This document shows positions 54,275-59,764 of a DNA stretch of 64,000 nt, one piece after another. Origin of the DNA: an uncultured Lachnospiraceae bacterium (GTDB taxonomy: Bacteria; Bacillota; Clostridia; Eubacteriales; Anaerofustaceae); assembly GCA_944381375.1 (NCBI GenBank), contig CALWKX010000014.1, forward strand, positions 1 through 64,000, read 5' to 3'. Under the pieces are notes generated by a model, which saw only the letters and a list, made by a program, of their open reading frames with translations, had not been told where the DNA came from and made no database searches. Numbering within the stretch: position 1 is the stretch's first letter; each line of letters opens with the position of its first letter. Position numbers and translations under genes: made by a program.

Positions 54275-54365
54275 TGGCGGAGGAGGAGAGATTTGAACTC
54301 TCGCGACGGTTTCCCGCCCTACACCCTTAGCAGGGGCGCCTCTTCGGCCTCTTGAGTACTCCTCC
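54275..54365 (-). tRNA. tRNA-Ser (anticodon GCU)
   Basis: The minus strand folds as a class II tRNA of 91 bases with encoded CCA. The acceptor stem is GGAGGAG / CTCCTCC with discriminator G, the anticodon loop reads CTGCTAA (GCU, decoding AGC/AGU), a long variable arm (GGGCGGGAAACCGTC region) is present and the T loop is TTCAAAT. Ser identity follows from anticodon, variable arm and discriminator G. Confidence 0.95.
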
Positions 54366-54377
54366 GAATTGAATATA

Positions 54378-54466
54378 TGGCCGAGAGAGTGGGATTCGAA
54401 CCCACGTGAGCTTTCGCCCAAACGGTTTTCAAGACCGCCCCGTTATGACCGCTTCGGTATCTCTCG
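54378..54466 (-). tRNA. tRNA-Ser (anticodon UGA)
   Basis: An 89-base class II tRNA with encoded CCA, 12 bases from the first tRNA-Ser. The anticodon loop is CTTGAAA (UGA, decoding UCN codons), the variable arm is long (TTTGGGCGAAAGCTCAC region), T loop TTCGAAT. The acceptor stem reads CGAGAGA / TCTCTCG, so the first pair is C1-G72 rather than G1-C72; the discriminator is G. Confidence 0.94.
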
Positions 54467-54543: not shown

Positions 54544-55230
54544 TTATATGTTGCTTGTGTAGTTTTTTGCATTAATGAATTCAACATAGGCTTTTTCCTC
54601 TATATCGATATCAAACGGCTTTATGCTATATTCACTGTCCTTGTACAATAAAAGTCTTTTTATAATTTTCTTTGTCAGATGCGGATTCCTTGCCAACAAA
54701 GGGCCCAAAACATAAGTTGCTAAAAAGTTGTTTTCGTATATAAAGTGACGGTCTATCTTTTCTTCGTTTATGTACAAAGCGCCTTGATGGTTTACAAATC
54801 CTATAATTTTTTCATCTGAAAATTCCGTCTTAAGACAAACATCTCCTACAGTACGTTTACCGTGCACAGCATAATAATCCAAAATTCCCAAAGCTTTTGT
54901 TTTTATGTCGGATAAATCTATTATATATTTACCGAACATTTCTATTGCATTTCCTGTAATAAGAAAGAATTTACCTGAATCAAATGCATCTTTTATTTGC
55001 TTGCTATATTGCATGAGATGATTTAAAGCCAAAATAGTTTTTTCTTCACTGCCGCTTCCTATATATATCATGTCCAGTATATTAAAATCAATATTGTCAT
55101 TTATGGAAAGCTTATATATTTTACATTCTATATTTTGACGTTCAAGCTGATATTTCAGCACCTTTATATTTCCTGATTCGCCGTATAAGTTCATTAAATC
55201 ATAATATAAGTAACCTATAGCTATTTTCAT
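54544..55230 (-). CDS. gatD: GatD-like amidotransferase subunit, catalytic Cys and His replaced
   Basis: A 228-residue class I glutamine amidotransferase-like protein of the CobQ/GatD group, paired with a MurT-type ligase. In active GatD the nucleophile lies in ICGGYQ and the His in TYLHGP. Here these regions read ITGNAIEMFG (Thr92 at the Cys position) and ATYVLGPLLARNP (Leu175 at the His position). The fold markers YIGSGSEE (56-63), LGILDYYAV (114-122) and GFVNHQG (144-150) are kept. It therefore should not hydrolyse glutamine in the normal way. It overlaps murT by four bases and would form the MurT/GatD heterodimer. Confidence 0.8.
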   Translation of the reverse strand: MKIAIGYLYYDLMNLYGESGNIKVLKYQLERQNIECKIYKLSINDNIDFNILDMIYIGSGSEEKTILALNHLMQYSKQIKDAFDSGKFFLITGNAIEMFGKYIIDLSDIKTKALGILDYYAVHGKRTVGDVCLKTEFSDEKIIGFVNHQGALYINEEKIDRHFIYENNFLATYVLGPLLARNPHLTKKIIKRLLLYKDSEYSIKPFDIDIEEKAYVEFINAKNYTSNI

Positions 55231-56555
55231 ATATTGTCTCCCAATATTGCTTTAAACGGTTCAACGTAGTCAAAATTCAGTATAGCATATATGTCTGTAT
55301 CGGATGAAAGTATACTTTGCTTGGCTTCTTGCAAGTCCTTAAATACTTTTATCTTATTAGTATCAATTTCCGCATATTTCAGCCTTGCGGCAATGTCGTA
55401 TCTTTGGTCTCCTGCACAGATAATCTCTTTAACTTCAGCTTCTTTTAAAAGCTCAAAACTTATATCATATAGCCATGATATGTCAAAATGTTTATATCGT
55501 CTGGAAATTTCTTTCCAGCCTAAAACTATAATTTTCTCTTTTTTGCTTCTCATCGCAAATAAAATTGCCTGATTGTATGTTGAGGCGTTCTCCGCTTTGC
55601 AGCTTAATATGTGGATGTCTTGCTGATCTTTTTTAAAATGCATATAAAGCTTTTGATCCATAGCTATTTCACAGATACATTTTGCGGTATCGTCTTCATT
55701 AAGACCGCTTAGCGATAAATAAGCGAAAGCCGCTGCAACATTGTAAATATTGAATAAAAGCGTATTGCTTAAATATATAGTGTGCAGCTTGTTTATAACA
55801 ATCGAATTGGACGTGTAGTCGCAGTTAGTTACTGCATAATTGATAACAGGTCGTTTAAAAGAGCATTTTTCACAGTAATAATCGCCAAGACTTTCAATAT
55901 GATAATAATTGTATTTCAGTTTTGCATTGCATATAGGACATAAATAAATATTTAAAGGATCGAATAAATTATTTGTATATGAATATTGCTGCCTTTCAAT
56001 CCCATAATATGATACATTGTATTTATCGTTTAGATTGAAATATCTTAAATAAGGATCATCGCCGTTTAATATTAAATGTACATTATAGTCAATGGCTTTT
56101 AATATTTCATTTAATATAAACTCGCAGTTTCTTTGTCTTGGCGGCTGGTCTCTTGTAATATTGGTAACTATGACATGGGAAGGTTTTATATAAGGAAACA
56201 CATATTTTGCGTATCTTTCGTCCATTTCAAATACGCATATATCCGTATTTACTTTTCCTTTCAGTGTACAGTTTTCAATAAGAGTTGTGATGATGGCGTT
56301 TCTTTCATTAGAACCTTTTGAATTATATGCTACCTTGTATCCGAGATTTTTGTAAACTTCGGCGATGATTTTTGAGGTTGAACCTTTCCCTGATGAGCCT
56401 GTTACTGCGATGATCTTTTGCGGCAGAATAAAATCACTCAGAATATTTTTGTTTAATATGTACGCCGCTTTCCCTGGTATGGCGCTGCCTCTGTTTAGTA
56501 ATTTGCCTAAAAATATGAATATTTTCCCTGTAAAAATACTGATGAATTTTTTCAT
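55227..56555 (-). CDS. murT: MurT-like Mur ligase family protein
   Basis: A 442-residue Mur ligase with the ATP loop VTGSSGKGSTSKII (about 51-64), a four-Cys ribbon (CPIC and CEKC, about 197-225) typical of MurT, and the C-terminal DUF1727 domain with FDISWLYDISFELL. MurT with GatD amidates the second residue (D-Glu) of the lipid II stem peptide. Here the partner lacks amidotransferase residues, so MurT may use free ammonia or have another role. A TATACT box at 56573-56578 precedes it. Confidence 0.85.
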   Translation of the reverse strand: MKKFISIFTGKIFIFLGKLLNRGSAIPGKAAYILNKNILSDFILPQKIIAVTGSSGKGSTSKIIAEVYKNLGYKVAYNSKGSNERNAIITTLIENCTLKGKVNTDICVFEMDERYAKYVFPYIKPSHVIVTNITRDQPPRQRNCEFILNEILKAIDYNVHLILNGDDPYLRYFNLNDKYNVSYYGIERQQYSYTNNLFDPLNIYLCPICNAKLKYNYYHIESLGDYYCEKCSFKRPVINYAVTNCDYTSNSIVINKLHTIYLSNTLLFNIYNVAAAFAYLSLSGLNEDDTAKCICEIAMDQKLYMHFKKDQQDIHILSCKAENASTYNQAILFAMRSKKEKIIVLGWKEISRRYKHFDISWLYDISFELLKEAEVKEIICAGDQRYDIAARLKYAEIDTNKIKVFKDLQEAKQSILSSDTDIYAILNFDYVEPFKAILGDNI

Positions 56556-58289: not shown

Positions 58290-59465
58290 TTAAATTGTTG
58301 GGCCTATAGTGTATATATCCATAGTGTTTGTGTATTTGATACTTTCGCTTTTTGTTGCTTTTCCGGATAATACATCAAGAAGCATATTAAATGCAGTTTC
58401 GCCTATTTCTTCTACTGATTTCGATGCACTCAGTACCTCTCCGGCATTAAGATCCATATCGTTTATCATTCGATTATAAGTCTCAGGATTACCGCAAACT
58501 TTCAGTACCGGCATTATAGGAAATCCCTGAGGAGCGCCTCTCCCTGTGGAAAAGATAACAGCTTGCGCGCCGGCTAAAGCCATGCCTGTAAGCAGTACCG
58601 GTTCGCGTCCCGGCGTGTTCTTTATCCAAAGTCCTTTGCAGCGGTGTGTTGCGATTTCATCGTATTCGAGCACGCCGTCAATTGGCCTTGTACCGGATTT
58701 CATGATTGCGCCCAGGCTTTTTTCTTCTATTGTGGAAAGTCCGCCTTCGATATTTCCAGGAGTAGGCTGTCCTTTACGCATATCCACTCCCAATGATTTG
58801 GCTCTTGTTTCCATTTGATCTACAATGGTTAGAATTTTTTCACCTATCTGGGGAGTTCTTGCACGCTTTGCCAAAATATGTTCAGCCCCGATAAATTCTG
58901 TTGTTTCTCCGAATATTACAGTGGCATTTAGATCTACAAGCTTATCAGACACATAGCCTATTACCATATTGGAGGCAAAACCTGAAGTTGCATCGGAGGC
59001 ACCGCATTTAATACCCATTATGAATTCACTGATGTCGGCAGTCTCTCTTTGAATACCTGTTGATTTCAAAACAAGTTTTTGAGCCAGTCCGACTCCTGCC
59101 GCTATGGCGTTTGTCATTCCGCCAAGCTTTTGAATATTAATTACTTCAACGGGTTTGCCTGTTTTGGCAATTTCTTCTGCGACCTTATTTACGTTCGTCC
59201 CTTCACATCCAAGGCTTACTATAAGAGCTGCCGCTACATTTGGATTTGAGCCCAGTCCGATAAGTGAATTTGTTACTCTGTCAAGATCAGGGCTTAACTG
59301 TGAACAGCCCTGCTGGTGCATGATTGCCGCGGCGCCGAGTGTCTGATTTGCTATAGCCGCTGTTACTTCATTTGCGCAGACAACGCTTGACATAATAGCT
59401 ACATAATTTCGTGATCCGAAAGTTCCGTCAGGTCTTCTGTATCCCTGAAAAGTATATTTTGACAT
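58290..59465 (-). CDS. UxaA-family hydro-lyase, large subunit
   Basis: A 391-residue protein of the altronate/galactarate dehydratase C-terminal family (FQGYRRPDGTFGSRNYVAI; MHQQGCSQL; SLGCEGTN; GIKCGASDATSG). The Cys residues in those motifs are candidates for Fe-S or metal binding. Together with the separate SAF-domain subunit it resembles both split altronate dehydratases and sulfolactate sulfo-lyase SuyB. No uronate or sulfolactate genes are near, so the substrate cannot be assigned. Its start overlaps the small-subunit stop by one base. Confidence 0.85.
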   Translation of the reverse strand: MSKYTFQGYRRPDGTFGSRNYVAIMSSVVCANEVTAAIANQTLGAAAIMHQQGCSQLSPDLDRVTNSLIGLGSNPNVAAALIVSLGCEGTNVNKVAEEIAKTGKPVEVINIQKLGGMTNAIAAGVGLAQKLVLKSTGIQRETADISEFIMGIKCGASDATSGFASNMVIGYVSDKLVDLNATVIFGETTEFIGAEHILAKRARTPQIGEKILTIVDQMETRAKSLGVDMRKGQPTPGNIEGGLSTIEEKSLGAIMKSGTRPIDGVLEYDEIATHRCKGLWIKNTPGREPVLLTGMALAGAQAVIFSTGRGAPQGFPIMPVLKVCGNPETYNRMINDMDLNAGEVLSASKSVEEIGETAFNMLLDVLSGKATKSESIKYTNTMDIYTIGPTI

Positions 59466-59764
59466 TATTGTAAATCTCCTCTCGCTCTCATACTGTCAAG
59501 ATTATGTACATGTACGTGCTCTCCTATTTTGATAGGTTTGCTTGTTTTGCCTATGCTTTCGCCGAATTTGATTATTTCAACTCCCTCTGCAATATCTTCA
59601 AGCGCTACTTTGTGACCGTAGGGTATATCCTGTTTTAGGGTTATTTCACCTATCTTACCGTTTGAGGCTGTAATTGTTATACTGGCACCTGCGTTTGCGC
59701 CTTTTGTAAATACGGTGGCGACATTGTCCTTGTCGCTGATCTTGATTGCAATTAATTGGTTCAT
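59465..59764 (-). CDS. UxaA-family hydro-lyase, small (SAF-domain) subunit
   Basis: A 99-residue SAF-domain protein (NVATVFTKGANAG; ITLKQDIPYGHKVALEDIAEG; PIKIGEHVHVHNLDSMRARGD). In fused enzymes this forms the N-terminus of altronate dehydratase UxaA; in SuyA and split forms it is separate. GGAGGAAG precedes the start. It is co-transcribed with the large subunit downstream and the flavoprotein upstream. Confidence 0.85.
   Translation of the reverse strand: MNQLIAIKISDKDNVATVFTKGANAGASITITASNGKIGEITLKQDIPYGHKVALEDIAEGVEIIKFGESIGKTSKPIKIGEHVHVHNLDSMRARGDLQ

Follow-up and report, generated by a model that had tools for sequence, protein, structure and literature searches.

MurT and GatD are regarded as a single enzyme, the lipid II isoglutaminyl synthase known from Staphylococcus aureus, Streptococcus pneumoniae and Streptococcus pyogenes, and their genes are annotated as such by homology. 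In general terms, GatD hydrolyses glutamine by means of a catalytic Cys and a catalytic His, and MurT uses the ammonia released. What happens when this glutaminase is disabled is illustrated by GatD C94G of S. aureus, which does not use glutamine and, together with MurT, carries out an NH3-dependent ligation at pH 8.5, but does not use NH3 at pH 7.5; GatD is still required for this ligation, MurT without GatD being inactive (PMC3266927). MurT is also able to stand in for MurE in vitro, a result suggesting that L-Lys is bound by it (PMC3266927). Here we describe a murT-gatD pair whose GatD lacks both catalytic residues, encoded in a window of 64,000 nucleotides from an uncultured Lachnospiraceae bacterium (assembly GCA_944381375.1, contig CALWKX010000014.1, positions 1 to 64,000). 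On balance, we lean towards considering it a member of an old, functional MurT-GatD clan that gave up glutamine hydrolysis and likely joins an amino acid instead.

The window pair resembles the lipid II isoglutaminyl synthase in gene order, pairing, both folds, ATP site and Cys4 ribbon. Its two open reading frames, both intact and on the minus strand, are a murT-like gene (55227..56555, 442 amino acids) encoding Mur ligase middle and C-terminal domains and a gatD-like gene (54544..55230, 228 amino acids) encoding a class I glutamine amidotransferase (GATase) fold, with the murT stop and the gatD start overlapping by 4 nt (55227..55230). In Pfam, GatD matches GATase_3 with 50.3 bits (cut-off 27), and MurT matches MurT_C with 73.2 bits (cut-off 25) and Mur_ligase_M with 41.5 (cut-off 24). 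The AlphaFold2 model of GatD (mean predicted local distance difference test score, pLDDT, 93.4) is most similar in the PDB to S. aureus GatD (6gs2_A), with a template modelling (TM) score of 0.86, while that of MurT (pLDDT 87.3) reaches a TM score of 0.78 to 9sqj; for both proteins, the nearest solved structures are MurT-GatD complexes. The initial annotation had stated that the fold, the pairing with MurT and the gene overlap were kept, and all three hold. Unlike the described synthases, however, the window GatD has neither Cys nor His, both proteins score far under the NCBIfam equivalog cut-offs (93.4 bits against 400 for GatD in NF045636, 163.1 against 800 for MurT in NF045635), and the MurT falls in a separate clan of the MurT tree.

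The loss of both catalytic residues, which had been noticed from the letters of the sequence, is confirmed. In the phmmer alignment, gapless in this region, Cys94 of S. aureus GatD is matched by Gly93 (codon GGA, 54952..54954, minus strand) and His189 by Leu175 (codon TTG, 54706..54708, minus strand), and MAFFT agrees on both. Leu175 had been named correctly, but the nucleophile position had been assigned to Thr92, which is one residue too early: Thr92 aligns with Ile93 of S. aureus GatD and, in the structure model, a strand (88-92) is followed by a helix (93-99) starting at Gly93, which would place Gly93 at the nucleophile elbow. Thr92 was also considered as a stand-in nucleophile and rejected, since it lies one residue ahead of the elbow and varies among relatives (I, V, T and others). 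No Cys or His that could rescue the activity was found near the active site of the window GatD, whose sole cysteines, Cys36 and Cys132, sit elsewhere. Other canonical residues are retained (Arg126, Asn147 and His148, the last being the residue of the GFENH type), more of them than in the related clades II and III introduced below. With a Gly at the nucleophile position, the window GatD carries the same change as the C94G mutant and, by analogy with that precedent, the complex would be a ligase devoid of glutaminase activity and not tied to one particular amine, predicted not to perform glutamine-dependent amidation. The likeness has its limits, since C94G is an engineered single change, whereas here the His is lost too, the state is ancient, and clades II and III lose further residues.

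Are we then dealing with a complex that has stopped working as a ligase? A pseudoenzyme role, with GatD as a scaffold or regulator and a pair that no longer ligates and, for example, only binds lipid II, could be suspected from the disappearance of the whole glutaminase dyad and from the presence of dead paralogues (i.e., lacking the catalytic residues) in three copies in this genome. The residues of MurT make this improbable. According to the alignment, the window MurT retains K57, N83, E110, D136, R140, K320 and N323, together with the Cys4 zinc-ribbon region (C206, C209, C228 and C231; 55863..55940, minus strand), its P-loop (TGSSGKGS, 56379..56402, minus strand) reads GSSGKGS instead of GTNGKTT, and it keeps Asp358 within FDISW (codon at 55482..55484, minus strand), the equivalent of S. 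aureus MurT Asp349, whose role has been described (PMC6113224). The earlier description of an intact ATP loop, Cys4 ribbon and DISW region is thus borne out. The P-loop Lys, the Mg-binding Glu, Asn83 and the hinge and ribose residues of MurT are kept throughout, and the ratio of nonsynonymous to synonymous substitutions (dN/dS) of MurT is low too. The equivalent of Asp349, which faces the GatD site, is lost in the MurTs of copies 2 and 3 of the same genome and in clade III.

The loss is not a feature of one locus. Tabulating the two positions in MurT-adjacent GatDs, as the initial annotation proposed, revealed that the same Cys-to-Gly change and the loss of the His recur over the entire clan, which argues against chance. 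Among 60 relatives, a dead GatD is the rule in the family of the window and in most of two other families, and only three genera (g20, g23 and g26) carry Cys and His, one of which (g20) has a dead pair as well. Canonical GatDs prevail in the 249 genomes surveyed from the phylum, where the Cys has been lost separately in families f24 and f35 and in some others. The losses outside the dead clan (L123, L124 and L139 of family f24, and L117, L135 and L141) are independent, several of them keep the His, and they indicate that the Cys of GatD has been lost repeatedly. A MurT tree built from 96 rows has a branch (SH-aLRT 99) with 44 rows on one side, each with a dead partner, and the minimum number of changes between live and dead states is five. 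Judging from this tree, the dead MurT clan appears well supported but not beyond doubt, because the search was short and several branches are long. It comprises clade I (the window pair and those of G270 and G126), clade II (a second pair of the window's genome and others) and clade III (the third pair of that genome, Eubacterium, Acetobacterium, Anaerofustis and others). Clade I occurs in 14 of 291 genomes of the class, always without Cys and His. For clade III, named genomes carrying such a MurT were scanned, giving 80 loci with 82 GatDs in, among others, Acetobacterium fimetarium, Eubacterium aggregans, E. barkeri, Emergencia timonensis, E. minutum, Anaerofustis stercorihominis, Mogibacterium and Family XIII. 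All 82 GatDs lack both residues as far as covered (one is cut before the His position), and 71 have Gly and Leu at the Cys and His positions. The idea of an unusual variant therefore stands as to the loss, but not as a singularity of this locus: the dead clan is a large, old and actively maintained branch in which the loss is a rule of the lineage. As a separate observation, three loci of Mogibacterium and related metagenome-assembled genomes (MAGs; L198, L218 and L230) hold two tandem MurT-GatD pairs, the second with Ser and Val at the Cys and His positions.

The genome of the window (1.54 Mb, 92.65% complete) illustrates this further, since it encodes three MurT_C proteins, each adjoining a GatD, and all three GatDs are without Cys and His. 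Copy 2 is encoded 37 kb from the window pair on the same contig, and copy 3 on contig C22; each clade has one representative (window pair in clade I, copy 2 in clade II and copy 3 in clade III). The window pair had been expected to be a paralogue if a canonical pair existed elsewhere; it does have paralogues, but these are two further dead pairs, and no canonical pair was found in this genome, whose completeness means that one may have been missed. The remaining GATase_3 match is HisH and was rejected as a further GatD. Three copies in a genome of 1.54 Mb might suggest a decaying, functionless duplicate, which we regard as very improbable for the window pair, and which is largely refuted for the clan: the overlapping reading frames are intact, the clan extends over many families, and closely related pairs of clades II and III give dN/dS values of 0.05-0.09 for the dead GatDs, which in these two clades are under purifying selection (the test covers clades II and III, the window pair having no close relative for it).

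A hint about what the dead pairs do comes from the neighbourhood of clade III, which is tied to D-amino acid supply. A gene for a protein of the ornithine racemase family (Orr) lies directly after gatD in 12 named clade III loci (11 plus L201), and a thirteenth case is provided by a genome of another family (G372), where Orr follows murT and a dead gatD; in L229, Orr is beside murT on the opposite strand. In four of the 12 named loci the next gene after Orr encodes arginase, an enzyme that makes L-ornithine. An alanine racemase gene precedes murT in four other clade III loci, and an alanine-racemase-like gene abuts the gatD of clade II pairs in two relatives (G003 and G009). Beside canonical pairs, neither Orr nor arginase was seen in any of 63 loci, within flanks of mostly about 1.5 kb. 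Counted by genome, 39 of 42 clade III carriers have Orr, compared with 3 of 19 non-carriers in the order (p=4e-9; one carrier, G043, is known from a fragment), and the counts become 13/14 against 2/12 after collapsing by genus (p=1.7e-4). Across the class, all eight true clade III carriers, most of them related, have Orr, as opposed to 36 of 282 other genomes; in the order of G192, only two genomes have Orr, and one of them is the single carrier. These p-values overstate the strength of the association because the genomes are related, and the repeated physical linkage of Orr in different families is the stronger argument. A pattern match in G505 was rejected, as it is not a MurT. Two clade III pairs with Orr sit in Actinomycetota bins (L224, a Propionibacteriaceae MAG, and L229, an Actinomycetaceae MAG), reflecting either horizontal transfer or a binning error. 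The genome of the window itself has an Orr-like gene lined up with genes resembling nifS and thiI (L267:8816-9877) and a second alanine-racemase-like gene beside an amino-acid ABC transporter (L266:8616-9761).

How could such a pair act? In the mechanism that we infer, MurT would still phosphorylate a carboxyl group of a peptidoglycan precursor, by homology the alpha-carboxyl of D-Glu in lipid I or II, and the dead GatD would be retained because MurT depends on it; an amine coming straight from solution, most likely an amino acid, would then attack instead of the ammonia made by GatD. This is reminiscent of MurE and other Mur ligases, including the pseudomurein ligases pMurC and pMurE, where an ATP-activated peptide carboxyl is attacked by a free amino acid as proposed here, and the fold of the window MurT does resemble pMurC (6vr7) and MurF/MurE. 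Unlike them, the window MurT has no UDP-binding N-terminal domain and is paired with a GATase-fold protein. In clade III the amine would probably be D-ornithine or a D-diamino acid like it, which would form the branch at position 2 of group B peptidoglycan, in which the cross-bridge begins at the alpha-carboxyl of D-Glu. Group B bridges have been described chemically since the 1970s, and the wall of Eubacterium limosum has D-Lys or D-Orn in such a bridge. For Eubacterium, peptidoglycan of group B2alpha is reported (PMC11382707), and a 2-4 linkage is also treated elsewhere (PMC6085368); clade III is carried by E. barkeri, E. aggregans and Acetobacterium, in a comparison that leaves aside Erysipelothrix and Microbacteriaceae. 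No paper naming a group B bridge enzyme was found in the literature searched, nor any that describes the dead clan or connects Orr with peptidoglycan, older wall literature being thinly covered there. Clade III would be a candidate for the enzyme that is still missing for group B peptidoglycan bridges.

Several observations weigh against this assignment. Most Orr matches in the order, as well as the arginase match, are just under the NCBIfam cut-offs (e.g., 457 bits against 480 for Orr of L182), and therefore the substrate of the racemase is assumed. Of 249 genomes in the phylum, 66 have Orr, and hardly any of these contain a clade III pair, so Orr must have other roles, and in many clade III genomes it is not linked to the pair. 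Moreover, the window pair has no racemase neighbour, nor was such a linkage seen for clade I, to which it belongs, and the clade I genomes G126 and G270 have no Orr. Finally, the Arg126, Asn147 and His148 of its GatD and the Asp358 of its MurT make the use of NH3 easier to imagine for this pair. An ammonia-dependent lipid II amidase, in which GatD would serve purely as a structural activator and D-isoglutamine would be made from free NH3, which abounds in the anaerobic gut, is indeed the main rival, and one that we consider unlikely but not negligible. It accords with the amidation by S. aureus MurT and GatD C94G, with the Gln-pocket residues and Asp358 retained in the window pair, and with an asparagine-synthase-like gene after gatD in G270, its nearest relative; nevertheless, the C94G complex made no use of NH3 at the lower pH (PMC3266927), and the Orr and arginase linkage and the coordinated changes of the clade III MurTs would be left unexplained. 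The asparagine-synthase-like gene (L317:2531-6404, 8 nt after the dead gatD) might itself be a second wall amidation enzyme.

Returning to the amino-acid ligase, the window pair would follow the same chemistry as clade III with a different amine, an amino acid being our first choice by analogy. What the sequences show is the absence of both catalytic residues, the existence of the clan, purifying selection and the linkage of clade III to a racemase, while the reaction, its substrate and the attachment site are inferred. The initial annotation had left free ammonia, transfer of another group and a regulatory role side by side. A reaction different from amidation with glutamine is likely: the transfer of another group has its best support in clade III, with its link to Orr, ammonia remains a rival for clade I, and a role in regulation alone is the poorest fit, given the ligase residues retained by MurT. 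The full proposal, namely that dead MurT-GatDs are lipid II amino-acid ligases, with clade III as the D-ornithine-type ligase of group B bridges in Clostridia and clades I and II using other amines, is advanced more tentatively, at slightly under an even chance. Since the entire clan is unable to hydrolyse glutamine by the known mechanism, the annotation as isoglutaminyl synthase is probably mistaken in many anaerobes of the gut. If clade III does attach D-ornithine, an enzyme for group B bridges would be identified, and a glutamine amidotransferase would have become an amino-acid ligase through losing its glutaminase; if clades I and II add other amines, a single genome of 1.5 Mb might employ three of these ligases. 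Both Eubacterium and Acetobacterium can be cultured, which makes the proposal directly testable.

Concerning the surroundings of the window pair, no conserved operon partner was found, its neighbours being housekeeping genes and two tRNA-Ser genes (GCT and TGA), 12 nt apart, immediately downstream of gatD (54275-54466). At 58290-59764, a UxaA-like altronate dehydratase is split over two adjacent genes, encoding its large and small parts.
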